Of a DNA stretch of 64,000 nt, positions 14,541 through 50,301 are shown one piece after another. Below the pieces are notes generated by a model. The model was not told the origin of the DNA. It worked only from the letters and a program-made list of their open reading frames with translations, and ran no database searches. The position numbers and the translations under genes were made by a program. Within the stretch, counting starts at the first letter, position 1; each line of letters starts with the position of its first letter. Source of the stretch: Zingiber officinale (taxonomy: Eukaryota; Streptophyta; Magnoliopsida; Zingiberales; Zingiberaceae); contig NC_055996.1 in assembly GCF_018446385.1 (NCBI RefSeq), positions 16,851,317 to 16,915,316 on the forward strand. Reading direction: 5' to 3'.

Positions 14541-14558
14541 TGGCGTCGTCTGTGGGAA
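14541..14558 (+). other. Primer-binding site of element A
   Basis: TGGCGTCGTCTGTGGGAA lies three bases after the LTR end. B and F have related versions on the minus strand. It resembles the TGGCGCCGTCTGTGGGAA-type sites known from Tat-lineage elements; the priming tRNA was not identified. Confidence 0.7.
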
Positions 14559-14582
14559 CGCTCCTGCATCCGATCGGAAGCA

Positions 14583-22810: not shown

Positions 22811-22812
22811 AT

Positions 22813-22824
22813 TGGTATCAGAGC
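22813..22824 (+). other. Primer-binding site of element D
   Basis: TGGTATCAGAGC, matching the 3' end of initiator tRNA-Met, as in most plant copia elements. It lies two bases after the LTR. Confidence 0.88.
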
Positions 22825-23164
22825 GGGGTCGCTTTGAACTGGTGCAACCACCATTCAAACATTTATCGTGGCTTTGTCGTGTGTATAGGGTAAAAATAAA
22901 ACCTTACGCCTTTCGTTTTTTCCCTCCAAAATTATTTTCGAAAAATTCATTTTCATCCTTTCACGGTTTATTAGTATTGATAAAATATTGAATTTGGCAA
23001 AATTTGAAATAATATTTTTTAAAATATTTTTTTTAATAATATTTTATTATTTTTTTTCGAAACTGGTGAACTTCTATTTCTATCCTTCCATACCGCACTG
23101 CTAATCCAGGATCAAGTCCTGGTACATTCTTTTTGCTATTTTTTTGTGGGCAAGGTTCTTTTAA

Positions 23165-24826
23165 ATGGCCCGCCAAGAAGGCTTTATCACTTCTCGCCCC
23201 CCGCTCTTCTCCGGCGAAGACTTTGCCTATTGGAAGAACCGGATGATCTACCATCTCAAGACGCAAGTCGAGATGTGGATCATCATCCAGACCGGTCTCG
23301 AGCTACCACTTGACGGCGCTGGAGAACTCGTTTCATGCACTAACTGGGATACCAGCATAAGAAAGAAGGTCGAAGCTGATGCCAAAGCAACCTGTATGCT
23401 GCAATGCGGGTTGACAAAAGAAGAACTGAATAGAGTCGGACCATTTTCAAGTGCGAAGGAGCTGTGGAACAAACTAATCGAGCTGCACGAGGGCACGTCA
23501 GACGCTAAAGTAAGTAAGCGTGATTTAATTTTAAATAAATTATATAATATTAAAATGCAGGAAGGTGAGACGGCGAACCAACTTCACGCACGCATCCGGG
23601 ACCTACTCAACGGGCTTCATGCGATCGGCCAAAAGGTGGAAAACCGCGACGTAATAAGATACGCGCTAAGTGCTTTTCCGAGGAACACTTTGTGGGCATC
23701 CATGGTTGATGCTTACAAAGTTTCCAAGGATTTATCCTCAATAAAACTAGATGAATTGTTTTCTGAATTAGAATTGCATGAGCAGACTAATGCACGCCCG
23801 GTCGAGAAAGGTGTTGCTTTGGTTGCAGGTACTAGCAGAACGCATGAACCGACGTCAAGGCGCAAATCTAAAATATCAGAGGACGAAGACGATGAATCAG
23901 ACGCAGAAGACGAAGACGAAGTTATTTCCAAGTTGATAAAACTCGTACGAAAGATGTGCAAGTCGAAGAAGGCAACTCAAATGAACACAAAGGACAGATC
24001 AGATGTCACCTGCTACGGCTGTAACCAAAAAGGTCACTACAAGCCAGATTGCCCAAACAAGAAGAAAAGAAGAAAGGCATTGAAAGCAACCTAGTCTGAG
24101 TCGTCAGACGAATCCGAGACTGACAAGGAAGAAGAACCAACGAGCTTTCTCGCATTACCGGCGCAGGCTAACATAATTGACGAAATCGAGTCCGAACTCG
24201 AGTCCGAAGCTGAGAACGAGTCAGAAACAGAGTCCGAGCGAAGCCACGAATCCGCATCCGTTTCCGAAGGCCCGATCCCCACTGTAAGTTCTTTTCTCGC
24301 CGAAACTCAAATAGATGACTTAAGAAATTTAGTTCCTTATTTGCTTAAAAAATTGGCTAAATCCAACATCCGGGTTAAGTCGCTCCAAAAGGAAGTAATA
24401 GCCCTTAAGGAAGCGACTGACTCGAGTTCTTTAACTGAGTCAGTTCAAGTTGGAAGTTCAACTCAAGTCCAACAACTTGAGGAAGAAAATTCCAATTTGA
24501 AAACTCAAATTAAAGAACTCAAGGATACGTTAGGACGTTTCACGTTGGGTTCCAAGAATTTGGATCTGATTCTTGGAAAACAGCGTGCCGTTTACAACAA
24601 ATCCGGACTTGGATTCAAGCCCAAAACTAAATATAGATCATATCTGTCGTTGGTAAATAGAAATAAAAGGAACATAATTCAAGCATGGGTCCCCAAGTCC
24701 AACCTCGTTAATCAAGTTGGACTTGGACAATATTGGGTCCCCAAGGATCAGGTCCACTACCTCGATAGACCATATCGAGGCTATGATCCAGGGGGAGCAA
24801 GCAGGAAAACAATTTTAATAAATTAA
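23165..24826 (+). pseudogene. Element D gag with C-terminal coiled coil, one internal stop
   Basis: A copia gag of about 552 codons in one frame, interrupted by a TAG at 24092-24094. The N-terminal part resembles the DUF4219/UBN2 gag family (KELWNKLIELHEGTSD). A CCHC knuckle, CYGCNQKGHYKPDC, precedes the stop, followed by an acidic serine/glutamate tract. After that comes a coiled-coil stretch (LKKLAKSNIRVKSLQKEV) and an end with IIQAWVPKSNL and YWVPKDQ. Such WVPK endings are found in large SIRE/Maximus-like gags, so those elements may supply pol. G has a related gag with tryptophan at the stop site. Confidence 0.85.
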
Positions 24827-27031
24827 ATTCAAAATTCATAAATCTAAAATTCACAATTAAATTAAAATTCAAAAATTAAAATTCGAAATTAAATTAAAAT
24901 TCAAAATTCAAATTACAAATTCAAAATTCGAAATTAAATCAAAATTAAATTCAAAAATTGAAATTTAAATTTCAATAGAAAGAGGATCCAGAATAGCTGG
25001 CACCCCCAACTAAATTACCCGACTGGGTAACCGAACTTAATCTACCCGAAATGGGTAAACAAGAGTAGACTACCCGGCAGGGTAATTAAGGTTAGATAAA
25101 ATGGGTTAGGTTTAACTTTACTAACAGTACTGGTGAAGTTTTTGGATGATAGTACGTTAGGGAAGCTTGGGCATCGCATGTCTAGGAAGATATGGCTTCG
25201 ACCTGGTGCATTTGGCCAAGTGGAACTGACCGAAGCTACCCTTAAATGGATCCTAACTAGTTAGACCAAGTTTTAGTATTAAGTTCAATGGGTAGGACTA
25301 TTTGGAAAACCTCGAAGGCATGGTTACTTTAATGAGTTCCTTGTGACTCACCATAGCCCAGAAGTTTATCCAAAGAATGCTTACTTGTTGAACCCAAAGC
25401 TAAACCTGAATCTAACACAAAGTTAAACCAACCCCTTAAACTGAACCACAATTCATCTCACAACAATTATAGGATTACCTGATTGAAAATTTAGATCGGG
25501 TGAGATGACTAAGAAATTAAAACTAAAATTAACTTAAATCAAGTTAATTCAAAAAAAAAAAACTTAATTTCAAAACTATTTTAAAAACTTAATTTCAAAA
25601 CTATTTTAAAAACTTAATTTCAAAACTATTTAAAAAAAAAAACTTAATTTCAAAACTATTTTAAAAACTTAATTTCAAAACTATTTTTAAAACTTAATTT
25701 CAAAACTATTTTAAAACTTAATTTCAAAATTATTTTGAAAATCTTTTAAAAATTATTTGAAAATCTTTTAAAAATTATTTTAAAAATCAATTTAAAAATC
25801 ATTTGAAAATCAATTTAAAAATTATTTGAAAATCTTTTAAAAATTATTTTAAAAATCAATTTAAAAATCTTTTGAAAATCAATTTCAAAATTATTTAAAA
25901 AAAACATTTCAAAAATCTTTTGAAAATCAATTTCAAAATTATTTAAAAAACATTTCAAAAATATTTTGAAAATCAATTTCAAAATTATTTAAAAAAACAT
26001 TTCAAAAATATTTTGAAAATCAATTTCAAAATTATTTTAAAAATCAATTTAAAAATTATTTGAAAATTTCTTTTAAAAGTCATTTGAAAATTCATTTCAA
26101 AATTGTTTGTAAAATTCTTTTATTCATTTCAAAATCATTTCAAAATTATTTGAAAAATCTTTGAAAAACTTATTTAAAAATTATTTGAAAAATCTTTGAA
26201 AAACTTATTTAAAAATCCTTTGAAAATTCATTTCAAAAATCTTTTGAAAATTCTTTTTAAAATCTTTTAAAATTAATTCAATTACTGTCAAAATATTAAT
26301 TTAAAAGGATTTAAAAAATTTAATTCTCAAATTCTGATTGCTAAAGTTAACTCTAATTAATTTTCAATAAATTCTCAAAAGTTTAGCATTTTCTCATTTG
26401 GAACTTAAATTTTCAATATTTTCAAATATAAATCTCGTCTCAAACTCATTCATAAGCTGCACATGTTTGATAATCTAGAATGGATGAGCTGGAATTAGGA
26501 TAATATAAAGTTCTTCTTATGCTTGTACTCTAAGACCCTAAGAATTTAATTTGGCATTAATTAAGGGGGAATGAACAGAGTCATGCTAGTACTTTAAGGC
26601 TAAACAAATTCCTTTAGGACTCTGATACCCAATCAAGTTAAATAATTTAATTTGACTCATGCTTGGACACCTAAACTCAAAGAATTTATTAAGGCATTAA
26701 TTTAAAATTTAAATTATCTATGCAACAATTCTTTTCAAACACCTTATGAATTGAGCTAAGTACTTCACCTAAATTTTTTTTAAGTCTGAGTACTTACCTA
26801 TGCTACCCTTTAGGGGGAGCTTAAATTAACTAGACTATTTCTCTCTTCTTAATTCTTTTTGATTTATGTCAAAGGGGGAGAGAAAAGTCAAAGTTAAGAA
26901 ATCAAGAATGAAAGGGGGAGCATAAACTTTAAATTTTATTTATGCATTGATGCTTCTGGTTAACTTTCATTATTTATTCCTTTATTTAAATGTTATGTTT
27001 TACTTAACTTTGAACCAAGATTGCCATAATC
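24827..27031 (+). repeat. Element D non-coding spacer, AT-rich, with no pol
   Basis: Positions 25000-25510 match the block at 720-1150 in G, in the opposite orientation. Positions 25530-26270 are degenerate repeats of AATTTCAAAACTATTTTAAA and TTTGAAAATCAATTTAAAA type. Positions 26300-27031 are AT-rich single-copy-like sequence with GGGGGAG motifs. No ORF is credible. Confidence 0.75.
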
Positions 27032-27043
27032 AAAAGGGAGAGA
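27032..27043 (+). other. Polypurine tract of element D
   Basis: AAAAGGGAGAGA lies just before the right LTR and would prime plus-strand synthesis. Confidence 0.8.
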
Positions 27044-27044
27044 T

Positions 27045-28288
27045 TGTTGGTGGAGAGCACCGATGATCGAACCCGAGTTTTGATTATGGCAAAGCTCAAA
27101 GTTAAGTGGTGGTGTTATCTAAAAAGTTCATTTGCAGGAAAGTCCTAAGTGTTACTTAGGCAAAAGTCCTAGCTGCGGTTAGGCGGTGAAAACCCTAGGG
27201 GTGGTAACCCTAGGTCATAGGGGTGGTAACCCCATGCGAAAAGTCTTGGCGGTCGATGGCTTCAGGCAAAAGTCCTAGGGGTGGTAACCCTAGGTGAAAA
27301 GTCCCGGTGTCGCGAACCGGTGAAAGTCTGGACTAGCCGGAAGCGGATGTCCAGCAGAAGTCCGGAAGCATCGAGCGCAAAGTCGATCTGGAGGATCGTC
27401 CTGCACAAGTAAATCTCCCGAGTGGAGTAGGTGAGGATGTTCCCGTAGAGGGAAAGAGGCGTCTAAGTCGACCTAGGGTTTCCTAGGAAACACAAGTCGA
27501 CTTTGACAGTCAATGTCACAAAACTATTATTATTATTATTCATTATGTTTCTGTGCTAACTTTGTTGTGCAGGGTATGTGTTTGGGACTAACACATTTTG
27601 CAGGAACAAAGGAGCAAGTTACAACTCGGATGAACAGTGTCCGAGGCGCCTCCATGGAGCTTGGAGGCGCCTAGGGTCACTGTTGAAAAGCAGAAGGTTG
27701 GAGGCGCCTTAGATGAAGTTCAAGGCGCCTTAGATGAAGTTCAAGGCGCCTTGGGTCGAAGGTTGAAGGCGCCTTGGGTAGGCTGAAGGCGCCTTGAACT
27801 GGATGAAGTTCGACCTAGTCTGTGCTGATCTCCGCGAGTGACTCGGCCTGTTCAAGGCGCCTTGGTGAACAGTAGAAGGCGCCTTGAACACCCTTTATAA
27901 GGGGTTTCGACCAGCAGCTCTAAACAACAACTTCCAAGCGATCTTTCTGCTACAAGCTGCTCACGAGACGATCCCGAAGTGCTGCTACGAGACACCGACG
28001 ACCCGGAGCTCCGAAATCTTCAGATTACGATATTGTCGTCGGTATAACTGTACTTTTTCATTATACTTAACTGTAATACTTGTACTCTTGTCGAGCTTAT
28101 AGTTGTTGCCCACGGAAAGCGATCAAGGATCGCGGGCCTTCGAGTAGGAGTCGTCACAGGCTCCGAACGAAGTAAATTCTCTTGTCTTTCTGTGTGTTTG
28201 TTTACTTTCCGCTGCGTTACTTCTCCGATAGTTTTTACGATTCCGATAATAGAACGATTTTAGCCACGAGCGCTATTCACCCCCCCCC
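27045..28288 (+). repeat. Element D right LTR, 3' end missing
   Basis: Starts TGTTGG. It has nine GGCGCC sites at 27645-27890, two more than the left LTR, partly through a duplicated ~22-bp unit. After CGCTATTCA it enters a run of 13 C (28280-28292) and then integrase of A. The left LTR continues about 22 bp further to CCAACA after its own run of seven C. Confidence 0.88.
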
Positions 28289-28850
28289 CCCCAAAGCAAT
28301 GGTCAAGCTGAAGTAACCAATCGGGAAATTCTTCGCGTTCTGCGCGCTCGGCTCGATCATTTGGGAGGAAGTTGGGTGGATGAAGTGTCGTGCGTCGTAT
28401 GGGCCATCCGAACGACTCCAAAGGAAGGAACGGGCGTCACGCCTTTCCATCTGGTATACGGCGGCGAAGCGGTGATTCCTGTCGAAGTCGGTGTCGAGTC
28501 CGTCCGAATCCAGAATTATGATGAGGGCAACGCCGAGCGGAGGAACATGGAGCTGGATTTGGTTGATGAGGAGCGAGCCAAGGCGTCCGTCCGGCTAATG
28601 GCGTACCGTTAACGAATGAAGCAAAACTACAACCGGCGTGTAATCCCCAGATCATTTCAGGTCGGCGACCTTGTCTAGAAGAAAGTAAAGTCGGTCGGCG
28701 ACATTGGCAAGCTGGAAGCTCCTTGGGCGGGCCCCTTCAAAATCATCGAAAAGCTCCGTTCGGGTGCTTATTATTTGGAGGATGCAGATGGGCGGTAGCT
28801 AGATCGACCATGGAGCGCCAATCATCTCCAGCCATACCGAGCGGGATGAG
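28289..28850 (+). pseudogene. Element A pol: integrase C-terminus, broken
   Basis: Resumes at QSNGQAEVTNREILRVL and continues with the end of the integrase core (TPFHLVYGGEAVIPVEVG). A TAA at 28610 and TAG codons near 28676 and 28796 interrupt the end. The last part resembles the GPFKI-type integrase tail. The join with 21579 is within one codon region, consistent with D being a late insertion. Confidence 0.85.
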
Positions 28851-28980
28851 AGGTGCGCTAATGTAATTTCTCATGTACTTTGGTCGCCTATGTATTTGTA
28901 ATGCAGGAAGCAAAAAATGATTAAGGATGACACATGGTTTAGCCGAACGACAGGGTTAAAGTTAGCCTTAAAGGCCATCG

Positions 28981-29630
28981 AGCTCCGACGTTAAAAATTG
29001 AGAGACGAGCCGGCGTCTATAAACCCTCCGAGCGGAAGACCGTCGAGCTCCGACGTTAAAAATCGAGAGACGAGCCAGCGTCTATAAACCATCCGAGCAG
29101 AAGACCGTCGAGCTCCGACGTTAAAAATCGAGAGACGAACCGGCGTCTATAAACCCTCCGAGCGGAAGACCGTCGAGCTCCGACGTTAAAAATCAAGAGA
29201 CGAGCCGGCGTCTATAAACCCTCCGAGCGGAAGACCGTCGAGCTCCGACGTTAAAAATCGAGAGACGAGTCGGCGTCTATAAACCCTCCGAGCGGAAGAT
29301 CGTCGAGCTCCAACGTTAAAAATCGAGAGACGAGCCAGCGTCTATAAACCCTCCGAGCGGAAGACTGTCGAGCTCCGACGTTAAAAATCGAGAGACGAGC
29401 CGGCGTCTATAAACCCTCCGAGCGAAGGACCGTCGAGATCCGACGTTAAAAATCGAGAGACGAGCTGGCGTCTATAAACCCTCCGAGCGGAAGACCGTCG
29501 AGCTCCGACGTTAAAAATCAAGAGACGAGCCGGCGTCTATAAACCCTCCGAGCGGAAGACCGTCGAGCTCCGACGGTAAAAATCGATAGACGAATCGGCG
29601 TCTATAAATCCTCCGATCGGATAAAAATCG
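28981..29630 (+). repeat. 65-bp tandem array in element A
   Basis: Ten units with starts at 28981, 29046, 29111, 29176, 29241, 29306, 29371, 29436, 29501 and 29566. Each contains AGCTCCGACGTTAAAAAT and GGCGTCTATAAACCCTCCG. The last units are more diverged. The array lies between integrase and the end of the antisense gene. Confidence 0.95.
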
Positions 29631-29987
29631 ACGTTAAAAGGTGGGCCACAGGAGTCTATAAGGCCGCTGGACGGGTTTGTGTGGTCCTACTCGGTTGTAA
29701 CGGCCAACTCATGATTGAGCCTGCCGTTAAAGCGAGAATAAAGACATCTGGTGGCCGAGCGGATCCTTTATAAAACGCACTTAGCGCGAGAAAATTAGGA
29801 CCGGCGCAAAAAGTTAAGGATTGGATGTTGGTCGAACAAACAAATAACAAAGAGAGAGAATTCATTTACACCAAACGGTGAATAGACAAAAGTGATAACA
29901 ACAGTCTTCGCCCCGAACGGCGGGCATACAAAAAACACTAGAAACTTGAAAGAAGTTTTACAAACCCTTCATTCACTATCACCAAAA
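29631..29987. other. Spacer between tandem array and antisense gene in element A
   Basis: No credible ORF. This stretch would hold the 3' untranslated region of the antisense gene. Confidence 0.45.
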
Positions 29988-32123
29988 TTAAAGAGAGAAT
30001 CGGGGATGGAGCCCATCATGACCGCCAAATCTTCGGGGGGGGATCGCCAGCTCGGTTGGTATGTGGCCCTTGCTCTTCAGATATTCGACTGCCACTTTGA
30101 TCGCCTCTTCGAAAGTTAAGGACAGCTTGTCGCTGAACTTTTCGCCAAATTCATCCGAGCGGACGAATGCTTTGCACGCTTCCGCCAACCGACCGGGCTC
30201 CCCATCTTGATATTCTTTAAGAGTGGCTCCGGAAGCGTCAAGGGCCGCCTGGAGATCTTTCAAAGCCCCTTCCGCTTTAACCTGGTCGGCCGAGCGGCCC
30301 TCTCGTTCAGTCTTCAGCAAGGCGTCCAAGTCCTTTACCCGCTGTTCTAGCCCCCGGTTCTCCACCTTTATCATGTCCATGTCGTCGATGGCTTTGCGCT
30401 TCCGGGTGGTCGCGGTCTTTATCTCCTTGTCCCGCTGCTTGACCAAAGCCTCAAGTCGAGCCACTTCGCTCGACAAGCCGGAGGACTTACCCCGTTCGGC
30501 TTCCAGCAGCTTTTTGGCCTTCTCCAGAGCGGTCGTTGACTGTCTGCTATCTCCCGCGGCTTTGAGCTTTTTCAGCTCGTCCTCCAGTTCGGTTAGGCGG
30601 TTGCTGATGGCAATCTGCTCCACCCAATTCTGCAAACGGATAGGAGCAAGTTAGAAACTAAATCCAAATAACTAACAAGGCAAAGAACATACCCCGGTCG
30701 CCTGTTGTAAATTGCTGTCGCCTAGCTGACCGGGAGTCATCATTGCAATTCGGAGCCGAGCATCCTCCCAGGCTTTGGCGAGAGGACCTGTAAGGGTGAT
30801 CTGCTGCTCGGGAACCACTGGTCGATCAGCAGTTGCTAAATATTCCTCCGAAGGAAGGCGCAGGACAGTTTTTATCAACCTTGGGCCGCTCGGATCACCC
30901 TGGGGCGCAGCGGCCTTACCAGACGGCTCACCGATGGAGGAAGAAGGACGGTCGCCCAATCGCCTAAGACGCCACATTGTTCGGGGAGGACTGGAGGGCG
31001 GCACCTCAGACGTAGGCCTTGGAGAGCCGCGCGGCGTGGGGGTACTCTCTATAGATACCGTCCCGGATAGCACTGGAGCTTCATCGCCCCGCTCGGACTG
31101 CGGTTCATCAGATGGAGTTGGTTGAGAGGCTGGCTCTGGCCGTCTGCGCTTCCGAGTTGCCAGGGGGGCTTCGTCAGCCGAGCGGCCCTCTACCCCGACT
31201 TGAGTAGAGGGCTCTATATCGCCCGCAGCCTCGCCGAGAGAGGCAGAAGCGTCTAAGGCTTCGGGGACACTCTGAGTCCCCTCACCCTCTTCGCTGGCCG
31301 GACCAGCTGAGGCCAAGCTCCGCTCGGCGACCTCCCTATTCTTGGCTGCCTCGATCTCAGCGGCTCACAGTTTCAGCCGCTCGGTAGCCTTTGCGCGCCA
31401 CATAACTTCGGCTGCATAAGCAAAGAATAAATCAGTTAGAACAAAAGAAAGAGGATGATAGGAGAACTTACTCATGCTGCAAGGCAGATCGGCGGGAATA
31501 GAAGACAAGCCGAATATATACATTACTCCCGGAAGGAGCAGCTTGTCGATATGGTAGCGCTGGCCGACCAGCCGGTCGACTGCATGAAGGTAGGCCGGAT
31601 CGCCCCTAAACTTGCTGGCCGGTGGCTCGGGGAAACGCATGTAGAAAAAATGCTCTTTCCAGTGTTTGTTGGAGCTCGGCATGTTATCAAAAAGGACGAA
31701 ACCTATCCTATATTGGAAAACAAAAGTACCCCACTCGGCTTGCTTAGGGTAGTAGAAGTAGTGGAACACTTTGGGGTCTAATGGGATGTTGTTCAGTTTA
31801 AAGAGAACTACCACCCCGCTCAGCAGCCTAATGGAGTTCGGGACTAGTTGGCCGAGCGGGATGCGAAAATAGTTGCACACTTGTAAGAAAAACTTATGTG
31901 GAGGAAAGCGTAGCCCGGCTAAAAATTGATCTAAAAAAAAGAGGACAGTGCCGGGCGGCGGTTCATAAGGCCGGTCGGTGGGGGTGGCTAATACTATGTG
32001 GTGGTCGGCAGGGATTTCATAGGTCCGAGTGAGACGCAGCGCGTCCTCCTCGTCAAACCGGCTCTCCATGGTCGTGTACCAAAGACCAGGAGCGACGGCG
32101 GTCGGCTGGGAAGTGCTAGTCAT
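29988..32123 (-). CDS. Spliced antisense gene of element A (Transposase_28-like plus coiled coil), one internal stop
   Basis: Runs against gag-pol. Model exons are 31472-32123, 30693-31411 and 29988-30629, joined in frame over 2013 nt (about 670 aa). Introns are 60 and 63 nt, T-rich, with GTAAGT/GCAG and GTATGT/GCAG borders; the second carries a stop if retained. Exon 1 resembles the 'putative gypsy type transposon' family (PF04195), for example RTYEIPADHHIVL and LLLPGVMYIFGLSSIP. Exon 2 is acidic and serine/proline-rich. Exon 3 is a long coiled coil. A TGA lies at 31365-31367. The start at 32123 matches the corresponding start in B. Biological role is unknown; extra antisense ORFs are known in Tat-lineage elements. 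Confidence 0.82.
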
Positions 32124-32381
32124 GGTCGAAACACAGTAAAGAATTCGAGACAAAAAGAAGGGTTCGAACAAGAAAGAAAAGGTGGCAGACTGAAGGGGAC
32201 AGCTAACAGAAAAAAGAAGAGGGAGGGAGCGAGGAAAAGGAAGGCTTACGAGCAAAAGGGATGATCGAAAGGGGCCTCGGGGTCGTCGGGGAGCTGAGAC
32301 ACGAGGTCGCCGGAGCAGAAAGAACAGCGGGAAGTCGAAGGTCGACGAAGCAAGAATGCGGCGGAGAGAAGAGGTCGCGAG

Positions 32382-32388
32382 ATTTATA
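32382..32388 (-). promoter_or_regulatory. TATA-like box of the antisense gene in element A
   Basis: Read on the minus strand it is TATAAAT followed by CTCGCGACC, 259 bp upstream of the antisense start codon. Element B has TATAAATCTTACTTCGCG at the equivalent place. Confidence 0.6.
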
Positions 32389-32757
32389 GCGTTAGCCTCG
32401 AACGGCCTCAGCCGTCCGATTCAGGTCGTGAAGAACTAGGCGATCATCCAACCGCTCATTTCAAACGGCGGCTGTCCCATCGGAGGTAACGCCACCGCCA
32501 TACGCTGACAAAAGCGAGATCGCCACGTGTCAGCAGGACACGTGTCGCATTTAATGAACGCCCCTTACTGCGCAGTGCACGTGCTTGGCAGTAAGGGAGA
32601 GGATTTGGCATGGATGCCAAGGGAATACAAGGCACGGGCAAGACATCGCCGAACGGATGAGCATCCCCAAGCCTGGCCGAGCGGACTATTGTAGCTGTCA
32701 TTACTCAGTCAGATCGGCAGTCCAGTCAGTCGGACTTCGCCTCCTTCGACTAGACTT
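32389..32757. other. Upstream region of the antisense gene in element A
   Basis: GC-rich sequence with no credible ORF. It contains CACGTGT-like motifs at 32526-32545. It could contain the antisense promoter. Confidence 0.4.
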
Positions 32758-32771
32758 GAAGGGGAGGCAAA
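32758..32771 (+). other. Polypurine tract of element A
   Basis: GAAGGGGAGGCAAA immediately precedes the 3' LTR, as expected for plus-strand priming. Confidence 0.75.
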
Positions 32772-33614
32772 TGATCCGACGGTAAGAACAAGGGACCCCC
32801 GTTCTGGGAAGTCAACGCCACGTGGAAGTCAAAGGATCGGAAAAGGATGGACTGACCGGACGCTCAAGAGAAGTTCGGACCGATCGGCCGACCGGACGGT
32901 TGAGAGAAGGTCGGACCGATCGGCTGACCGGAGAAGAGTGGTTGACCGACCAGATGGCCGATCGGTGTTTAACTGACGGCCAAAGGGCGCCCCGATGGGA
33001 GTCGGGATTCCGGCGCTCGATTGAGCAGGAATGAAGGGCCGAGCGGAAGTCCCGCTCGGTCGAAGACACAAGGTAACATACTGCTAACAGTCTCCGCAAA
33101 GCACATTACCGAGAATCTCCCAAGTAGACCATTATATATGTCCGGCCGGACGTAAGGCGGGGGCTGGCCGGCCGGAAGTAAGGCGGGGGCTGGGACAGCG
33201 GGCATGTTCTGCGTTCAGGCCATACTCAAAATCCTACGACAGAAGGATCCGCTGTCCCATCGGAGACGTGCTCAAACTGTAGCAGTATGGGGTCAGGTAA
33301 GCTCCTCTGACAAGCCCACACTACGGTATGGGAAAGGACACATGTACACCTCGGTATGTGTGCACTCGCTTCTCCACAGCCCTATATAAAGACCCTCACC
33401 CTTCACCGGAGGTACGCGCTCTACAATTTTCGGAGCCACTTCGTTGTTCGCTTACCTGACTTGAGCGTCGGAGGGTCGTCGTCGGGAACCCCTTCCCGGC
33501 CCGACTTCTGTGCAGGTTCGCCGGAGGTTCGTACGACCAATCGGAGATCTACGTCAGCGACTCAGAGAGTGCCACGTGCCCAGCATCTGTTGATTCAGCA
33601 TTCGGACAGGATCA
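32772..33614 (+). repeat. Element A 3' LTR
   Basis: 843 bp with TGATCC and GGATCA ends and a TATATAAA box at 33383-33390. It is clearly the partner of 13654-14537. GACAC follows at 33615-33619. Confidence 0.92.
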
Positions 33615-34072
33615 GACACGTTCTCCAATTGGTAGTGGGCCCGTCCTTTGATTTATCCATTGTACAATCCGCCTATAGACCATGTCACATGTTGGCGACG
33701 TCATCTCCTAAAAGTATATCCAAATACACGTCAGCGTTCCCGCCAATCGACCGAGCGGGATAGCCCCTCTGCCGAGCACTCTTTGGTCAGTTGAGTATTC
33801 CTCTGTTTGGCTGCTCTTTCCTGCGACGACGAGTTTAGATAGTATGTTCAAGCCCAACCGAAATAGCGATCTGGTCATCTACACGCGCCTTCGCTTGGCT
33901 CATCCCATGCGACTCATTCCCGGTCAGCCCTTGATGTGGAGCTCTACTCGGCTACCATTTAGTGAGCTCGTTGGTCATCTAGCGTTAACCTCCTTGACTT
34001 TGACCTCCACGTCAGCTGCTATCTTCTTCCTTTGACTCGCACTTGGTGGGCCCCCTTTATCACCGCATTACA
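33615..34072 (-). repeat. Element B left (3') LTR, second segment
   Basis: Continues the B LTR after A and matches 50650-51116, including the phrase CGATCTGGTCATCTACAC. Its end is less exact than that of the right LTR (CGCATTACA against CGTATCA). Confidence 0.8.
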
Positions 34073-34792
34073 AGTTTTTCTCTCAAGTCTAGTCCAAGGA
34101 GGCGGCAAGTCCGATTAACTGGACAAGTAGCGTAGCATATCAAATAACCTGGTAATTGGTCAGAGGGTTGACCGACCATTCCTTTGTTGGGGTTGTATAG
34201 CTGCCGCTCGGATGATACCTCATAAGTTTAGTGTTGACTCAGTCGTTCGACTGTACCATAATTGAATATCTATGCCGATTAGGATGGTTGACATCAATAC
34301 TTAGCGAATTTTTCCATTTCTTTAGACTTTCTTAGCTAGGTGCCCAACGACAAGAGCTGGCGTCATCTCAATTTCAAGAAGACCGTATAAATCTCTGATC
34401 ATTATGGCCAAGCACGCCTCCCATGCCTTTTAATTAACCCTCATTAATGCCTCGCTATAACCTGCTGACACGTGTCCTACTTCTACCGTCACACGCTCGA
34501 TGTGATAGGCGGATAACCGCTGGTGATGTGACAGGCGTCTTTCCAAATTCTACGACCGGATCTTCTCCTAGTTTTTCGTATCCCTTGATCGGACGGCTTA
34601 GGGCGATCGACCGCGGGATTTATAAATCTTACTTCGCGTCGCCGTCGTCTTCACTCCTTTCGTTTTCATCTTCGAGCAGCCTCTATGACACTTCTTCCTC
34701 TCTCATTCTCTAGCGACCACTTTCAGTAAGCTTCTTCGTTCTTTCCTTCGCTGAATCCGTTCGTTGATTTTTTCTCGATTTCTTTATTCTTG
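34073..34792. other. Element B region upstream of its antisense gene
   Basis: No credible protein gene. A TATAAAT box at 34621-34627 on the plus strand precedes the antisense start. Confidence 0.45.
34621..34627 (+). promoter_or_regulatory. TATA-like box of the antisense gene in element B
   Basis: TATAAAT in GGGATTTATAAATCTTAC, 172 bp upstream of the ATG at 34793. Its position and sequence are comparable to the box in A. Confidence 0.6.
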
Positions 34793-36978
34793 ATGGCTAG
34801 TTCCTTGCAGCCTCCGGTACCCGTCCATGGACTTTAGTATACTTTCACCGAGTCCAGGTTTGATAGGGACAACATAGAGAGATCAAAATCCATCTACAAC
34901 CTTCCATCCGATTATCAACTTGCCCTTCCATCCACTTTCGAACGACCCCATGAACCACCAGTAGATTTTTTGTGTTTTTTAAGGATCAGTTTTCCGTCGG
35001 CCTTCAATTCCCTATTCATCCTTTCTTTTCCGCTGTGTGTAAATATTTCCACATTTCCCTTAATCAGCTAGTGTCGAACTCCTTTAGATTGTTGTACGGT
35101 GTCGTAATTTTGTTCTGCTTGCACGGCATTCCCTTGATTTCTTGAGTCTTCTATTATTTCTATTAATCTAAACTATCCGAGCCAGGGACCTTCTTGTTTC
35201 AAGCCCGAGTGGGCTCGGTCTTTTTTGATAAAATAACATCCTCCAATAAGCATTGGAGATAACAATATTTCTTTGTTTGTTTACCCGAGCGACCCGACTT
35301 CTCGACCAGATGGCAGATGAAAGTGATGAATCCTCCGTCGCTTAGGAAGCATTGAGGCCGATCGAACTATCTCTAACCAGCGTCCAGTTTGGCTGGTCAA
35401 AAGTATCACACACATAAGCTACTTTTGGAGGGCGTCCTATATGTGTTCGGCTTGAGTCAAATCCGAGCATGTCTTTCATCTAGCCTAGGTATGCTATTTA
35501 TTCTCCTCATCTTTGAATCTAACTTAATTTTCCTCCCTATTTTACAGCCTGCATCATGTTGAGGGCGCGCTTGGCCGGCAATAGCAGGCTTGTGACGTGG
35601 AGATCAACGCAACAACCGTGGTCAAGTTGGAGAGCTGTGACTTGTAGCCGGTCACCCCTTTTGAAGACCCGCTCGGTGAGGCAGGCGAGACTCCTAAGCC
35701 GACCAACAAGGTGGGAGGCAGTCAGATAGTGGCTAGTGATGCAGCGGCCGCTATAGCTGACCTTCTTCCCAAACGACCTTCGATATTGTTGATCGCAGTT
35801 GCTTCAGAGTCGGTCACTTCCGGCGAACCCCTCCAATGGTGCAAGAAGCGTCATGAGGAAGTTTCCTCCCGCTCCGCCACATCTGCCCTATAAAACCCCG
35901 CCCAATCTGGTTCACACCCTTCATATGAGTGGGGTGAGACATCGACGCTCATTCTTCCGAAGCAGGGGGTTTCCACGCTCCATACTTCCGTATCCTCCGA
36001 CCAGACTCCATCATTGTCCGGTCTACCATCGAGAACAATCTGTGCGTCGTCGGTCACCTTCATGCCACCACCATCCTCACCAACCTCACAAGTATTCGTC
36101 ATCCGGCCGACCCCTAGGCCCTAGTCCACAAGGAGAGCGACCTTTGGCCCGTCCAGTCCAAGCGGTCAGCACCAAATAACGACAATCATCCATTTGCCAA
36201 CTGATGAATGGCGTAGCCCGGATGACGTCGCATCCCGCACCCCCGAGCATCAGATTCGGATCCAAGGGTCGCTTGCACTATGGGTCAATGCTAGGGCCCG
36301 TGCGACGGTCATCTCTCAGAGGAATCCGCAAACAGTCATACCCAGATGGCCACTGGGATAAGTATACTGTATTTATATTTACATATTTTTACCCGCTCGG
36401 CCCTTACGTTCTCCTTATCGCTATAGTATTGGGTCGAGAATTTGGTCATGTGCTAGAAGCTAGCCTTCCTCGAGCATGAAGTCCAACAGATGCATGCCTT
36501 TGACGACCAGTCGAAGGCTTCTCAAACGCACTTGGAGCAGCTGACCTTTGAGGGGGGCCAATTAAGGGTCAATCTACAGCGAAGCTGCGAGCTGCTAGAG
36601 GCAGAGAGGAGCAAGAGCACCGATCGGGCTTTGCAACTAGCGAGGCTCAATAAACAGGCCATCTCTTTTGAGTTGAAGATCCATTCAGCCAATACCAGGA
36701 AACTCCAAGCCATTGAGGACTTGGAGATCAAGAATAAAGAGACTCGAGAGGCAGATCCCAGTCGATTTGAAGTACTCAAGCGGGATTACCTCCGCTCGGA
36801 TGCCTTCAATGAACGATTTACTAATCGAGTGCTCCGCCTCTTCAACTTTGGAATTGATGGGACTCTCGACCAACTGAAGGACGACAACTATCTCCCTTTC
36901 GCGCTGACAAACAAGGTTATCAACATGGAGAAGATGACCGAGTCACTCCACGACAACGTGTTCGACTATCTCGAGTAG
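34793..36978 (+). pseudogene. Antisense gene of element B, broken
   Basis: The plus strand is antisense to B's gag-pol. The start is similar to that of A. Conserved pieces include YTFTESRFDRDN near 34835 and LLYGVVILFCLHGIPL near 35090. Frameshifts and an in-frame TAG (a tryptophan site in A) break exon 1. An intron at 35489-35547 (59 nt, GTATGC...TTTTACAG) has the same position and phase as intron 1 in A. The third exon begins at 36427 after a CTATAG acceptor, with WVEN aligned to WVEQ in A. The coiled-coil ORF at 36490-36978 then remains open, including YLRSDAFNERFTNRVLRLFN. Confidence 0.78.
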
Positions 36979-37479
36979 CCTTCCTTTATGCCTCCTCGAA
37001 TCGCTTTCTTTCTGTATTTCTCCATATGTAACAAATTTTCTAAGTGTAAATGAATACATCGTCGTTCGGCGTTTCATCTTTCAATTAAACTTTACAAGTG
37101 TTTGTTGGCACCTCATCGTTCGACGTCTCTTCACTTTGTTGAATCTTGAAAGTACTTAAGAAATGTGTTTTCGTTCGGCTCAACTGTGCATCATTTAAAG
37201 TTTTATGAAATTTATCTAAGTATAACTCCCTGCTTTCTCGCTCGTCGGTGTAGCTAATCCCAGATACCTTCGCATGCTCCTTCCAGCATAGGCCGAACGA
37301 CAATATCATTGTGAGGCATCCTTGCTGCCATCACTTCTCGACATGTTAACTTTACTTTATGGCTTTAGGAAGCCACTCGGCCTTATTCATCACCAACTCA
37401 GTTTTAGAGTCATTACTCGACTACTATTTATCATAGACTTCAGTTTATAGTCGATGTTCGGCTGTTTATGCGTAGATAG
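36979..37479. other. Element B spacer before tandem array
   Basis: No credible ORF. It probably includes the 3' end of the antisense transcript. Confidence 0.4.
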
Positions 37480-38010
37480 TTGTCGCTCGACTATTGACGA
37501 AGACTATGATTTATAGTTGCTGCTCAACAGTTGGAGAATACTACGGTTTATAGTAGCCGCTCGACTTTTGACAAAGACATGAGTTTATAGTCGCCGCTCG
37601 ACTTCTGACGAAGACATAGGTTTATAGCCGCTGCTCGACTGTTGGTGAAGACTAGGGTTTATAGTCATCACTCGACTGTTGGTGAAGACTAGAGTTTATA
37701 GTCACCGCTCGACTGTTGACAAAGACTAGGGTTTATAGTCGCCGCTCGATTGTTGGTGAAGACTAGGGTTTTTGATCATCGCTCGAATGTTGGTGAAGAC
37801 TAGGGTTTATAGTCGTTGCTTGACTGTTAACGAAGACTAGGGTTTATAGTCATCGCTCGACTGTTTGTGAAGACTAGAGTTTATAGTCGCCGCTCGGCTT
37901 TTGATGAAGACATGTGTTTATAGTGGTCGCTCGACTGTTGGTGAAGACTAGGGTTTATAGTCGCCACTTGACTTTTGACGAAGACATGGGTTTAAAGTCG
38001 TCACTCGACT
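37480..38010 (-). repeat. 37-bp tandem array in element B
   Basis: About 14 degenerate units; for example, two starts lie at 37641 and 37678. In element orientation each carries GGCGACTATAAACCCTAGTC. The array occupies the same location as the 65-bp array in A. Confidence 0.88.
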
Positions 38011-38199
38011 TTTAACTTGGTCGAACTACATAAGAGTCTGGAACACTTAGGATTTTTATTTATTGTATTTCTACATCCACAAGACATACACTTACGCAAG
38101 TACATTCAGATTTAACCACACACCTCTCACCCAACCCTATATGGATGAAGATGATTCACGCTCCAAGGCCGCTCGAGCTTTCTCCTGTCCTTGTCCTGC

Positions 38200-40222
38200 A
38201 AGTAGTAGGCTCCCGAGCGGAGCTTCTGAATGACTTTAAAAGGTCCTCCCATGGAGCCTCTAATTTAGTAACATCGCCGACCTGGAATGACCTTGTGATC
38301 ATCCTTCAGTTGTAGTTCAACTTCATGCACTGTTTGTATGCCATCAGCCGGATGTCAGCCTTGTCTCGCACTTAGTCCACAAGGTCGAGCTCCATGAGCC
38401 TTCTTTCAATGTTTCCATCGTCATAGAGCTGCACTCGATCAGAGTCTACTCCGACTTCCACTGGAACCACCGTCTCACCGCTATACACCAGGTGGAACGG
38501 TGTGACGCCGATCACCTCTCTTGGTGTGGTACGATGAGTCCACAAGACACTCAGGAGCTCATCAACCCAGCTTCCTCCAGCGTGGCCGAGCCGAGCTCAT
38601 AACCCTCTAGGGATCTCCCGGTTGGTGACTTTCACTTGGTCATTGCTCTGAGGGTAGGCCGCTGAGGTGAAGGCCTGCACAATGTCATAGCCTAGCACCA
38701 CTCCTTGAGTCTCCGTCCAGTGAACTGCCTCTCGTTATCCGAGACGAGCCGGCGATGGATGCTGAACCAACATAGAATATTCTACCATATGAATTTGATG
38801 ACCTTATGTTCGATTATCTTGGCTATCGGCTCGACCTCCGCCCACTTTGAAAAGTAGTCTACTGCGACAAGCAAAAATCTTCGCTGGCTAGTCGCCATTG
38901 GAAATGGTCCAACGATGTCCATGCCCCATTGGTCGAACAGATAAGACATAGTAGATGTCTTCATCTCCTTGGTCAGTCGGTGTTGGATGTTGTGATATTT
39001 TTGACACGATAGGTAGGTGGGCACTGTCCGAGCGGCATCCTCTTGCAGTGTGAGCAAAAAATATCCCGCCAACAGGATCTTTCGGGCTAGCAATCTACCG
39101 CTTGGATGACTTCCGCAGGAGCCCTGATGCACTTCTTGAAGGATGTACTTGACGTCATCCGATCCAACACACTTGTGCAACGGCCTTGAGAAAGCTTTTT
39201 TATACAGCTAGTCTCCAACCAGAGTAAACCATTCGACCCTCTTTTTCACTAGGTGAGCTTCTTCCTGATCGACTGGAGTGCTACCTGATCAGAGGAACTC
39301 TATCAACGGGGCCCTCCAGTCGCTCGGGAGGTTTATTCCATCAATCCTATCGATGTGCGCCATTAGGGAGACTTGCTTGATCGGCTGCTCTATCATAATC
39401 GATGACAATGAACTGGCTAACTTAGCCAACTCATTCGCGATCTGATTGTCCGAGCGGGCGATCTTCTGTATAACAACTTTTTGGAAGTTTGCCTTTAACT
39501 TCTTAAAAGCTTATATATATAGCCAGAGTCAGGAGCTGCTTATTTCGAACGCCCCCAATTGATGCTGAGTGGCAAGTTGAGAATCCTAGTGGATGATGAC
39601 CTTTGTTGCTTCGACATGACGAGCCGCCTACAAGCCGGCTATTAAGGTCTCATACTCGGCTTCATTATTGGTAGCCCGATAGTCTAGCCGCACAGACAGT
39701 TGAATCATGTCCTCTCGTGGCGAGATCAAGAGAATGTCAATCTCGCTACCTTACCGAGTGGGCGATCCATCTACGTATACTTTCCAAGTCTTGTCTGGCT
39801 CGGCGTTCTGGATCTCAGTGACAAAATTAGCTAAGGCTTGGGCCTTGATCGTCGTTCAGTGTTGATATTTTATATCGAATTCGCTCAACTCAGTTGTTTA
39901 TTTTATCAGTCATCAGAATGCCTTTGGGTTTAAAAGGACTCTCCCTGAGACACTATTGGTCATCACGATGATCGGATGTGAAAGGAAGTACGGACAAAGT
40001 CTCTGAGCGGCGAGTACTAGCGCGTATGCCAATTTTTCGAGATAGGTATAGCGGGACTCTGTGTCTTTCAATATATGACTCAAAAAATATACAGGCTATT
40101 GTTCTGAGCCGTTCTGGCACACCAACGCCGAGCTAACCACATACTAAGTGGATGGCAAGTAAATCAAAAGCGGCTCGCCAGCGATGGATTTGGTCAATAC
40201 AGGCAGGGAGTTAAGATACCCT
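38200..40222 (-). pseudogene. Element B integrase and RNase H, broken
   Basis: The ORF at 38782-39180 is the integrase zinc-binding region and core (EVHQGSCGSHPSGRLLARK, WGMDIVGPFPMATSQRR). The second zinc cysteine pair is damaged: where A has TCLSC, B reads TYLSC. The integrase C-terminal part lies at 38200-38780 and RNase H at about 39200-39830, both with stops. Confidence 0.82.
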
Positions 40223-41460
40223 TTAAGCTCTTCCAGCACCTTGTCGCATTCTGCGCCCCACTAGAACTTGGTCACTTGGCACAATATCTTGAAGAATGGA
40301 TGACTCCGATTGGATGACTTGGAGATGAACTTTGATAGCGCGGTAATCCGTCCGGTCAGATGTTGGGCCTCCTTCAAGTTGCGGGGCGGGGGCATGTCTC
40401 TTAGAGCCTTCACCTTGCTCGGATTCACCTTGATCCCCCATTCGGTGACGATGTATCTGAGGAAGCAGCCGCTCCTTGCTCTGAACAAGCACTTGTTTGG
40501 GTTCAACTTTATCCTGTACGTCCTTAAAGTTCGGCAGATTTCTTTAATATCGGCACAAAGATTAGTAGCTCGGAGGAACTTTTTCAGTATGTCATCAACA
40601 TATATCTCTATGTTACAGTTAATCTGCTAACGGAACACCTTGATCATCAACCTCTGATAGGTGGTGCTGACATTCTTCAGTCCGAATGGCATGACATTGT
40701 AACAATAAGTTTCATCGACAGTGATGAAGCTGATCTTTTCTTAATTCTCCCAGATGAACGGCACTTGGTGGTAAGCTTGATATACACCGAGTATGCACAT
40801 CAACTCGCAGCCTACCGTAGAGTCCACCATCTGATTTATCCTGGGCAGGGGATAGAAATCCTTCGAGCAAGCCTTATTCAAATCACGAAAGTCGATACTG
40901 ACTCTCCATTTATTGTCCAGTTTAGAGACCAACACGATGTTGGACAACCAGCTTGGAAACTGAACCTCACATATTTGACCGACATCAAACAATTTTTCTA
41001 TCTCCGCCCAGATGATCTGATTCTGCTTTGCACTGAAGTCCCTCTTCTTTTGTTTCACAGGCCGAGCATCCGGTTAGACGTGAAGCTCGTGTTGAGCTAC
41101 ACTTAGCGAGATGCCTGGGAGTTCATGGGTCGACCATGTAAACACGTCGTGATTTCACCGAAGGCAAGTGACCAACTTTGCCTTCTTCTCCTCTGTCAGG
41201 TCGGCGGCGATGAAGGTGGTGGCCTCTGATCGGCTGGGATGGATCTGAACTTCCTCCTTTTCTTCGTAAACCAGTGTGGGAGGTTCTTGATGGTGTTCAC
41301 ATCCAAGTGAGAGGCCTTTCGCTGCTCTTACTTCGGACTTGACAATCTTGACGTAGCATCGCCGAACGGCCAGCTGAATGCCTTTTACTTCGCCCACCTT
41401 ATTATCCACAGGAAACTTGATCTTCTGATAAAAAGTGAACACCATCGCTCAAAACTCATT
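40223..41460 (-). pseudogene. Element B reverse transcriptase, broken
   Basis: Segments at 40261-40506, 40741-41058 and 41155-41445 match successive parts of A's RT and linker. IYVDDIL is readable near 40598. Phrases such as WRVSIDFRDLNKACSKDFYP confirm the fingers domain. B lacks the extra 4 bp found in A near 17000. Several stops and frameshifts remain. Confidence 0.84.
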
Positions 41461-41798
41461 AAGGGCAGGTCGGCCCAATATTATATTGTAGGTGGACGAC
41501 ACATCCACCACAATGAAGTTTGTGATTCTTATCCTCTTGAACGACTCCTCTCCAAGCGATATGGCCAGTCAAATCTGGCCGATCGGCAATACTTCATTTC
41601 CTATGAACTCGTAGAGTGGGGTCGTCATTGACTGCAACTCACTCTTGTCAATTTACAGCTGGTCGAACGCCTTCTTAAATATAATATTCACCGAGCTTCC
41701 TGTATCAGCAAAAGTCCAGTGAATATTATAATTAGCTATTATCGCTCAGATGATCAAGGTGTCATCATGAGGGATCTCCACTCCCTCTAGGTCTTGGG
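41461..41798 (-). pseudogene. Element B protease, first part before element C
   Basis: Contains a readable DTGSS active-site box at about 41690-41712 and LEGVEIPHDD near the end. Element C interrupts it at 41798. TTGGG at 41794-41798 is one target-site copy. Confidence 0.82.
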
Positions 41799-43661
41799 TG
41801 TTAGGATCGATGATCGCGGCTAGAGAGGGGGGTGTCAATAGCCGACCCCAAATCTTCGCGTTTCTTCCTACGATTAGGGTTAGCGCAGCGGAAATAAACA
41901 AAAGAAACGACAACGGAGAATAGCAAACCTCAAACTCATCGATGTAACGAGGTTCGGAGATGATACTCCTACTCCTCGGCGTGTCTGTAAGGTGGACGAA
42001 ACCTATCAATCCGTCGGTGGATGAGACCCCGGAAAACCGGTTAATAACAACTCCTTCTGGGTGGAGAAACCTCGCCACAATAACTTGCAATAACAAGATA
42101 GAAATACAGCAAGAAATACAAACAATATGAATGTAAAACACCTTGCTTGCCTTTGACTGGTTTCCGTTGTCGAAGCAGCAACTTCACGGAAGAACAGCAG
42201 CAGCTGACCAGCCGGGGAAGCTCACACGAAGCTTCACGAATCAGAGAGCTCAGCAAAGCTCAAGTGCAGCAAGAAGCAGGGGCAAGAAGGAAGAAGTAAC
42301 TCTCTGGAACAGTAGCTCCTCAACCTCTTTTATAACCTGCGAAGAAGACACAGAAGAGACTAGCCGTTGCTACGCAACGGCTAGGACGTGGACCGATCAG
42401 GCTTCATCCTGATCGGTCCACAAGGGTCCTGATCGGTCACAAGACCGATCAGGCCCTTCCCTGATCGGTCATGAGGACCGATCAGGTCCTTCCCTGATCG
42501 GTCCCATGACCGATCAGGACCTTTCCCTCCCGAAGATGATCTCCTTCTGATCGATCACTGATCGGTCTGCTGACCGATCAGATAAGCAGCAGAATGCTTC
42601 TGTTTGGTTACTGATCGGTCACCAGACCGATCAGATAACCCAGCATATCACTGGATCGGTCACCAGACCGATCCAGGTTTAGAGCTCCCAGCCCTAAACC
42701 CGACTTGGTCCTGAGAACGAGCTACCGAGCCCTCTCCGACTTCGTCCGGTCCAGAGAACGAGCTACCGAGCCCTCTCTGACCTAGTCCGAAGAACGAGCT
42801 ACCGAGCCCTCTCCGACTTCGTCCGGTCCAGAGAACGAGCTACCGAGCCCTCTCTGACCTAGTCCGGAGAACGAGCTGCCGAGCCCTCTCCGACTTCGTC
42901 CGGTCCAGAGAACGAGCTACCGAGCCCTCTCTGACCTAGTCCGGAGAACGAGCTGCCGAGCCCTCTCCGACTTCGTCCGGTCCAGAGAATGAGCTACCGA
43001 GCCCTCTCTGACCTAGTCCGGAGAACGAGCTACCGAGCCCTCTCCGACTTCGCATGCCAAGCTTCCATACTTGGACTTTTCCCGTGCCAAGTCTCCATAC
43101 TTGGGCTTTTCCCGTGCCAAGCTCCCTGCTTGGACTTTTCCGTGCCAAGTCTCCATACTTGGACTTTACCCGTGCCAAGTCTCCATACTTGGACTTTTCA
43201 CCAAATGTCTGGTCAATCTTGACCCATCTGGATTCCCCTTGCCTGGCTTCACTCACCAGGACTTCCGAACTGCCTAGCTTCACTCACTAGGTCTTTCCCC
43301 TGCCTGGCTTCACTCACCAGTGCTTTCCCAATTGCCTAGGTTCACTCACCAGGACTTTCTCCAACTGCCTGGCTTCACTCACCAGGACTTCCCGACTGCC
43401 TGGCTTCACTCACCAGGACTTTTCGAACTGCCTGGCTTCACTCACCAGGACTTCCCAGTCAAGTATCCGGTCAACCTTGACCTACTTGACTCTTCTTCAT
43501 CCAACCTGATCAGACCCTGATCAGTATCTCTCCGCATGGACAACTGCACCTGCATTGTCCATGTCTACATATCTTTCTGTATTGTCAAACATCGAAACCA
43601 TGACCAAGGTTTACGCTTGGTCAACTAGGTCAACCTTGACCTACTGGAAATTGCACCAACA
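41799..43661 (-). repeat. Element C left (3') LTR with internal repeat arrays
   Basis: 1863 bp. It holds inverted TGATCGGTC and GACCGATCA pairs (42370-42680), nine ~39-bp GAACGAGCTACCGAGCCCTC units (42710-43050), and repeats of TGCCAAGTCTCCATACTTGG (43050-43200) and CTGGCTTCACTCACCAGGAC (43240-43460). Confidence 0.93.
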
Positions 43662-45504
43662 ATCTCCCCCTTTTTGATGTTTGACAATACCTTTAAGTTA
43701 GGCTAATCCAATAGCCTCAACTTTCCTCATGCCACTAGGTAATGAAACATAAGTTACAACCTTACATTCTCCTTCTAAGAAGGCAACCTCCTTCTTAGAT
43801 AAAGAATACCTAACTTAAACCCTTCATTCTCCCCCTATTGGCACACATCAACAAACTCTCCCCCTGAAGAGTAAGTTATCGTTGTTCACAACTTCACTCG
43901 TCGTGATCAACAAACTCTCCCACTAACTCCAATGTTCTTCCTTGAACATTCTCTAGACATTCTTCCCCTTTTTGACACACATAAAAAAGAGTGAATATTA
44001 AGGTCAAGAGTTTCTTCCTAATGAAAGTCTCATACCTTTCATTGAAACCCTTAATTTCTCCCTTGATACTAATGTCAATAGTCAATTTAGTGATAATCCC
44101 ATATCACTCATGACAACTCCCCCTAAAGGTCAACTCCCCTTGACCAATAGGTAAAACTCCCCCTAAAGATCAACTCCCCCTTGACCATTGCACCAACAAT
44201 GTCTTGGAGAGTTCCAAACCTTTAGAAACCTAAAACACCACTTCCCGAGCTGAAATTTCAGACAACCAGTCGAATTTCAGCAAGTTGGCACGCCCTGATC
44301 GGTCACCGGACCGATCAGGCTTCCTCTGGATCGGTCCAGTGACCGATCCACACAGACCTGGACCGATCAGAATCCTCTCTGATCGGTCCACAAGTCTGAT
44401 ATCAGAATTTCTGATTTTCCTCCCGAAATTCAGAAACTCCTAGAAAATTCCAGAAAATTCCAAAAATTGTAAAACTTTGAGGATACATTCCTCATAACAT
44501 ATATTATCAAGGAAAAATAGTTTTCTATGAAAATAGCTTCCATTTTTCAATCTTGATACAAAGTTCACAAGTCTTTGAAATAGCTCAAAGTTAACTCATC
44601 TTTGTATCACTTTGCTCAATGATGAATGCTATTACTAGAAAAGCTTCATCAAGGTTTTTCAAATCAATTTTAAAATAATTTTAAACCATTTAATTTAGGA
44701 CCACAATCTTAGGGCTAAATGTACATGACTTGTACACAAGCTTTCCCTATGATCCCCAATTTCGAATTAAGCTCATCTAGGTACAAGAACTATGCACCTT
44801 GATCCTAACTCATAATCCTAATATCTCACACACATCTAAGGTGTATCAAACACATTCAAGTCAATTTTGATGTGAGATATGTGTTTAGGTTATCTTAGGC
44901 TAAGGTCTCATGCATTTTTCTAAACAACAATTTGATCTCCATATCAAATTGTGTTTCTTATCCTTAAATCAAGTTAATTGATCATTAATGCACAAGACGA
45001 TGACATGGCATATAATGATATCATAAATGAAAACATGTGCCAATGTCATGATGTCATGGCATAAAGTATGAAACTTAAATAAATCATGACATTTAACTAA
45101 CCTAAGCATTATCATGACATTTCAAAAGATCATAGATTAAATATGATGTCATGACATGGCATATGGCAAACAATATATGGCAAATAACATGTAAAGGTAT
45201 AGAAAATACCTAATTCTAGCCTTAGTTGCCATTTTTGATAATTTTGATCATTTTGCCATAAATTCTATATTCCTAAGTGTGATAGACCTCAAATCATATA
45301 CCAAAGATGTTTAGATCACTATGTGCCAATTAGATTGACTATAGACAACTCCTCAAATTTGGTTGGCACATCCTAATTATCTTAGGAATAACTTTCCATT
45401 TCATTTTCAAGGCTTGATTACACCTTGAAAATTCCCAAAGTGCCACCTTTTGCCATGATTAGGTTAACTACCTATTCAAGTAAGGTTGGCACACTCTAAT
45501 CCAT
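43662..45504 (-). other. Element C non-coding interior near the 3' LTR
   Basis: Contains a polypurine tract next to the LTR (43662-43676; AAAAAGGGGGAGAT on the minus strand). Palindromic CTGATCGGTC motifs recur at 44290-44395. The rest is AT-rich with no credible pol ORF. Confidence 0.7.
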
Positions 45505-46980: not shown

Positions 46981-47027
46981 CTCTAGCTTGTGCTCCCTCG
47001 GGTGTTAATCCGGCGAAGAGCGACCTC

Positions 47028-47039
47028 GCTCTGATACCA
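47028..47039 (-). other. Primer-binding site of element C
   Basis: On the minus strand TGGTATCAGAGC, the initiator tRNA-Met match, next to the 5' LTR. Confidence 0.88.
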
Positions 47040-47041
47040 CT

Positions 47042-50261: not shown

Positions 50262-50301
50262 GTTTCGGATTCAGGCTACAATCCCACAGACGGTGTCAAT
50301 A

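Follow-up and report, generated by a model that had tools for sequence, protein, structure and literature searches.

The window analysed here is a 64,000-nucleotide stretch of Zingiber officinale DNA (contig NC_055996.1, positions 16,851,317 to 16,915,316, forward strand) that contains two related gypsy elements, A and B, each carrying a copy of a gene read antisense to the element's own genes. We consider the two to be, probably, decayed copies of a single accessory gene of Tat/Retand-type elements, a gene that is antisense and contains introns. The comparison of copies establishes a gene model with three exons, intron phases of 1 and 0 and an internal TATA box, and it also establishes purifying selection on the predicted protein in the lineages that transposed. 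We infer transcription, splicing and function; the likeliest product is a nuclear protein with a self-regulatory role, expressed from the gene's own promoter on the antisense strand. An accessory gene known as loose reading frames is, judged on these sequences, better read as one spliced gene. An initial annotation of the window had proposed such a spliced antisense gene; its observation is partly confirmed and its interpretation is supported.

Structure of the antisense gene

The copy in element A lies on the minus strand and runs from an ATG at 32123 to a stop codon at 29988, with three exons and 670 codons. Exon 1 (31472-32123) encodes a PF04195 (Transposase_28) match at residues 62-125; the initial annotation had asked for this comparison, and the match scores 39.8 bits against a curated cut-off of 26.2. 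Intron 1 (31412-31471, 60 nt, GTAAGT...GCAG) is in phase 1 and is followed by exon 2 (30693-31411), a low-complexity linker with a basic stretch, RKRRR (31154-31140). Intron 2 (30630-30692, 63 nt, GTATGT...GCAG) is in phase 0, and exon 3 (29988-30629) is coiled-coil-like and ends at the stop codon. The three-exon gene of about 670 codons with introns of 60 and 63 nt had been described before and the model holds, with the correction that an in-frame TGA in exon 2 (31367-31365), codon 233 of 670, had been missed and breaks the frame. The TATA box, TATAAATCT, is found at 32380-32388 on the minus strand, 265 nt above the ATG.

The RKRRR stretch of A (31140-31154, minus strand) lies in a fast-evolving linker and is exact in 17 of 29 copies of family 1 (described below). 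It is a possible candidate for a nuclear signal.

Element B carries its copy on the plus strand. Exon 1 (34793-35488) is decayed by stops and a frameshift (six stops in two aligned pieces lying in different frames), and its start codon, the ATG at 34793, is kept as had been stated. Alignment places intron 1 at 35489-35547 (59 nt, GTATGC...ACAG), with site and phase matching those of A, again in agreement with the earlier description. Intron 2, also by alignment, occupies 36358-36426; its donor reads AT, where the relative L066 has GT, and its AG acceptor is kept (36426/36427), which upholds a third exon starting at the WVE residues. This exon (36427-36978) is coiled-coil-like; it had been described as open, which is true of 36490-36978, and it contains a TAG at 36454-36456. 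The TATA box of B, TATAAATCT, is at 34621-34629 on the plus strand. Of the distances of 172-259 nt above the ATG that had been given for this box, the 172 nt of B is correct and the value for A is 265, not 259.

To place these copies among their relatives, the host assembly was searched with PF04195 (24,225 first-look candidates, of which 150 were scored) and with A exon 1 (41,143 candidates, 150 scored, giving 261 matches). Family 1 consists of A and 29 loci (L032-L060) with exon 1 84-94% identical, the B family of B and eight loci, and family 2 of 30 loci found by the PF04195 profile, 29 of which are 33-43% identical to A exon 1; L023 of family 2 matches A exon 1 over 67 residues only. From the counts that follow, L023 (unalignable) and L030 (cut short there) were dropped for intron 1 of family 2, and L043, which has no exons 2 and 3, for intron 2 of family 1. 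Since families 1 and 2 were sampled by protein similarity, an extra sample was drawn by DNA pattern, comprising 14 of the 421 places that carry the pattern at the intron-2 donor.

Intron 1 has one site and phase common to family 1, the B family and family 2. The initial annotation had staked its reading on the splice sites being preserved in other copies, and they are: pooled over the three families, 65 of 67 sampled copies have the GT and 60 of 67 the AG. By family, the figures are GT in 29/30 and AG in 27/30 with a length of 60 nt in 30/30 (family 1), GT in 9/9 and AG in 7/9 with lengths of 58-59 nt (B family), and GT in 27/28 and AG in 26/28 with lengths of 72-85 nt (family 2). The family-2 intron is not a multiple of three in 27 of 28 copies, so exon 2 can join exon 1 there by splicing only. 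Twelve of the 14 loci of the DNA-pattern sample are readable at intron 1, with GT in 11 and AG in 11. Intron 2 is likewise kept in family 1 (GT 28/29, AG 28/29, 63-65 nt). The second intron of family 2 aligns in five of six extended loci, leading to a coiled-coil-like exon, and in L006, where reading through is possible, its phase is 0; the extended locus L027 has unrelated sequence at this place. Among viral contigs, 16 stretches matched a pattern for relatives of the gene and none was confirmed.

Upstream of the gene, 29 of 30 family-1 copies and seven of nine copies of the B family have TATAAA. Among 1083 seven-base windows upstream of the start codon in family 2, the TATA core ranks first for conservation, and 25 of 29 copies read TATAAATA. 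The box of A begins 384 nt inside the internal region (at 32388, with the long terminal repeat, LTR, starting at 32772); start sites are a prediction.

A second conserved motif, GTAAGCC (32243-32249, minus strand), lies 126 nt above the ATG of A and ranks second of 740 upstream windows for conservation in family 1; GTAAGC occurs in 30/30 family-1 copies and at a similar place in seven of nine copies of the B family. Because of this high rank, a further intron in the 5' untranslated region was considered, with the donor-like GTAAGCC at -126, and was rejected as no convincing acceptor was seen.

Selection on the protein and persistence of the introns

The variants among copies were divided into those shared by at least two copies, which come mostly from lineages still transposing, and singletons, which mostly arose after insertion. 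In family 1 (29 copies) the shared variants give omega (dN/dS) values of 0.16, 0.37 and 0.26 for exons 1, 2 and 3, respectively, and the singletons 0.50, 0.75 and 0.56 (Fisher p = 2e-7, 3e-5 and 3e-5). Read out of frame, the same columns give omega values of 0.74-2.81 for the shared variants, and the upstream region, the 5' untranslated region and the introns have no codon rhythm. In family 2 (29 copies) omega is 0.25 for shared variants versus 0.89 for singletons in exon 1 (p = 1e-12) and 0.52 versus 1.47 in exon 2 (192 codons; p = 9e-12); the intron is flat, with no codon rhythm. The singleton omega of 0.42-0.75 in family 1 indicates selection that is not fully relaxed, which suggests that part of these variants arose in active lineages.

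Three checks bear on the protein-based sampling, namely exons 2 and 3, the part of family 2 outside PF04195 (omega 0.28 shared versus 0.94 singletons) and the DNA-pattern sample. The last of these gives shared-variant omega values of 0.17, 0.35 and 0.20 for exons 1, 2 and 3; its exon-1 singletons are unreliable and inflated, as L081 and L090 have no matching sequence there. The per-exon omega that the initial annotation had proposed to compute thus lies at 0.16-0.52 in frame for shared variants. Its argument from conserved splice sites to a selected protein is borne out, in that three families share the position and phase of intron 1 and it is only in the predicted frame that most shared variants are silent. 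On this comparison, the ancestor of both broken window copies was a protein-coding gene under selection, with conserved splice signals.

These data also bear on the suggestion that the antisense transcript matters as RNA, through double-stranded RNA, small RNAs or interference with sense transcription, and that the reading frame is secondary. A role as RNA has been raised in a review that names non-coding antisense transcripts for other elements (PMC7264820). In all exons tested, however, shared variants are mostly silent in the predicted frame and not in the others, which a purely RNA role does not predict. We regard it as unlikely, although a role of the RNA may add to that of the protein.

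No intronless copy was found when three spliced junctions were searched. The exon 1-exon 2 junction of family 1 (up to two mismatches) is found at no place, versus 675 unspliced sites, and the exon 2-exon 3 junction (up to three mismatches) at two places, both unrelated to the gene; there are 421 unspliced sites for intron 2 and none for a reversed-pattern control. The family-2 exon 1-exon 2 junction (up to three mismatches) was also found at no place, a figure that has no unspliced count as its denominator. The simplest reading of these results is that new copies would be made from sense RNA, in which antisense introns could not be spliced.

Several observations weigh against reading the feature as a spliced gene for a regulatory protein. 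The copies in A and B are both broken, exon 3 shows little conservation from one family to another, and the loci of families 1 and 2 were drawn from the top-scoring protein or profile hits. Exon 1 of A gives a single-sequence structure model with a pLDDT of 33, its fold not being predictable, and has no match in the PDB by sequence at E up to 1. The nuclear regulatory role would have analogy as its basis. In conservation, the TATA window ranks 115 of 740 in family 1 and 79 of 436 in the B family; it is unexceptional in both, and the promoter evidence is therefore weaker there. The earlier proposal of a promoter of its own, rather than the LTR, accordingly gains from a TATA box in all three families and from the work on maize Grande, as a review summarises it (PMC7264820), and loses from these two rankings. 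Lastly, the family-1 intron 1 measures 60 nt in 30/30 copies and has no in-frame stop in 29/30, so that an unspliced form with 20 extra residues is possible.

This last point could be taken further, to the view that this intron belongs to the coding sequence or frequently stays in the message to give a longer form, which we think quite unlikely. Against the constant length and the open frame stand the shared variants within the intron, which number 3, 5 and 4 by codon position in the retained frame, without a third-position excess (the excess of exon 1 versus intron 1 has a Fisher p of 0.03, on small numbers). A CTAAC branch-like motif is present in 29/30 family-1 introns, one of the 12 readable pattern-sample copies has a one-base deletion in the intron, and the family-2 intron at the same site disrupts the frame in 27/28. 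The recent capture of a host gene, carried as a passenger with no role in the element, is highly improbable: the TATA box, short introns and several exons do have the look of an ordinary plant gene, but the gene is found in three diverged families of the host genome, antisense TRP28 (PF04195) open reading frames (ORFs) are reported in 97% of Retand clusters from 34 species (Vicient 2025, PMC11963269), with the domain in the same place in distant plants, and selection inside the element is not what a passenger would display.

The nested elements and their surroundings

Comparison of the window with itself shows two nested LTR elements, with A inside the 3' LTR of B; both are gypsy elements of the Tat/Retand type. 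Element A (13654-33614, plus strand) has LTRs at 13654-14537 and 32772-33614, is interrupted by other insertions and is flanked on both sides by a GACAC duplication. Element B (33615-51117, minus strand) extends from the part of its 3' LTR adjoining A to its 5' LTR at 50302-51117, and the remainder of the 3' LTR is found at 13304-13653, on the far side of A. The nested insertion explains the opposite orientation of the two elements noted earlier. The LTR pair of A has K = 0.044 (843 aligned sites) and that of B K = 0.183 (800 sites); given these values and the position of A inside the 3' LTR of B, A is the younger.

The sense strand of A encodes, in order, gag, reverse transcriptase, RNase H, a second RNase H (RVT_3) and integrase, the domain order published for Ogre and Retand elements (PMC6317226). 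A second RNase H of archaeal type between RNase H and integrase is the published mark of Ogre and Retand within the Tat clade (PMC6317226), and RVT_3 is found in A in two pieces between RT_RNaseH and Integrase_H2C2, one scoring 20.9 bits, slightly short of the 21.6 cut-off, and the other above it at 27.9 bits. An insertion of about 2.4 kb, absent from B, splits this second RNase H. The Retand assignment follows the antisense TRP28 gene between pol and the 3' LTR, seen directly in A and by homology in B. Beyond the 3' end of the antisense gene, A has a tandem array of 65-nt units (28971-29621), and B has one of 37-nt units (37476-38013) at the corresponding place; arrays of this kind are reported from roughly half of the recent Retand elements (PMC11963269).

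The window holds further inserted sequences. An element inserted in A (21580-28286) has a copia-type gag (PF14223) and LTRs that are 87% alike. Within B, two direct repeats that are 94-99% alike and contain many tandem repeats (41799-43661 and 47042-48709) are the probable borders of a further insertion. At 4214-8226 lies part of a third element, B-like and oriented as B; tblastn with the exons of A found no copy of the antisense gene there. Exons resembling host genes are present at 53138-53740 and 62575-63069, with a GATA zinc finger (PF00320) and a pfkB carbohydrate kinase (PF00294). Rfam gave no matches within the window at gathering scores.

Proposed working and comparison with known systems

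In the working that we propose, transcription from the internal TATA box would yield an antisense pre-mRNA, both short introns would be spliced out and the message would be translated. The product may then enter the nucleus and act in trans on the element's own DNA or transcription (compare HBZ, below). The sense RNA would be the template for new copies, and the introns, being reversed there, could not be spliced; the spliced antisense mRNA has no LTRs and would not be copied back. The introns would persist because the sense template cannot splice them and the antisense mRNA is not copied back.

The domain, place and strand of the gene and, for Grande, a promoter of its own are already published. 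The TRP28 ORFs of Vicient 2025 agree with the gene described here in domain, antisense place and nearby tandem arrays, and they are presumed to be regulatory (PMC11963269). That survey lists Smc-like coiled-coil antisense ORFs apart from TRP28, both found by ORF Finder (PMC11963269); here, in contrast, the counterparts of these separate ORFs read as exons 1 and 3 of one spliced gene. The word 'intron' is absent from the available portion of its text (PMC11963269). A search of titles, abstracts and selected text passages, outside which Gomez-Orte 2013 and Steinbauerova 2011 fall, found no earlier description of one spliced three-exon gene conserved between families. A wider proposal, which we put forward as possible rather than probable, is that the separately reported TRP28 and Smc-like antisense ORFs are one ancient, spliced, lineage-wide gene, that its introns serve as a strand lock, unseen in the sense RNA from which new copies are made but required in the antisense message, and that its product is a plant counterpart of HBZ, the self-regulator of a widespread lineage.

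Gene23 of the maize element Grande, as described in the review of Vicient and Casacuberta 2020, has its own promoter and a nuclear product (PMC7264820). Compared by the description in that review only, it resembles the present gene in lying antisense in the long 3' internal region (PMC7264820). The same review calls for a look at spliced antisense transcripts (PMC7264820). Another parallel is Ogre, a Tat-clade element that has retained an intron (PMC6317226), but in the present gene the introns are antisense.

What the antisense TRP28 protein does in Retand elements is treated in the literature as an open question. Should one spliced gene encode this protein, surveys based on ORFs have looked at pieces of a gene, and single unspliced ORFs used in tests would be the wrong protein. 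The gene model supplies a defined protein, junction primers and a promoter that can be assayed; the gene is also a naturally occurring example of introns being retained by a retroelement over many cycles of reverse transcription.

The domain of HBZ is bZIP, and no bZIP is present among the Pfam matches of the three exons of A and exon 3 of B at E up to 1. No shared domain having been found, the comparison with HBZ is an analogy of working, not of kinship. HBZ of HTLV-1 is a spliced antisense protein-coding gene (PMC1459196), and the likeness lies in such a gene being read against the retroelement's own genes (PMC1459196). A probable difference is that HBZ transcripts start in the 3' LTR, whereas the likely TATA box of the gene described here is inside the element.

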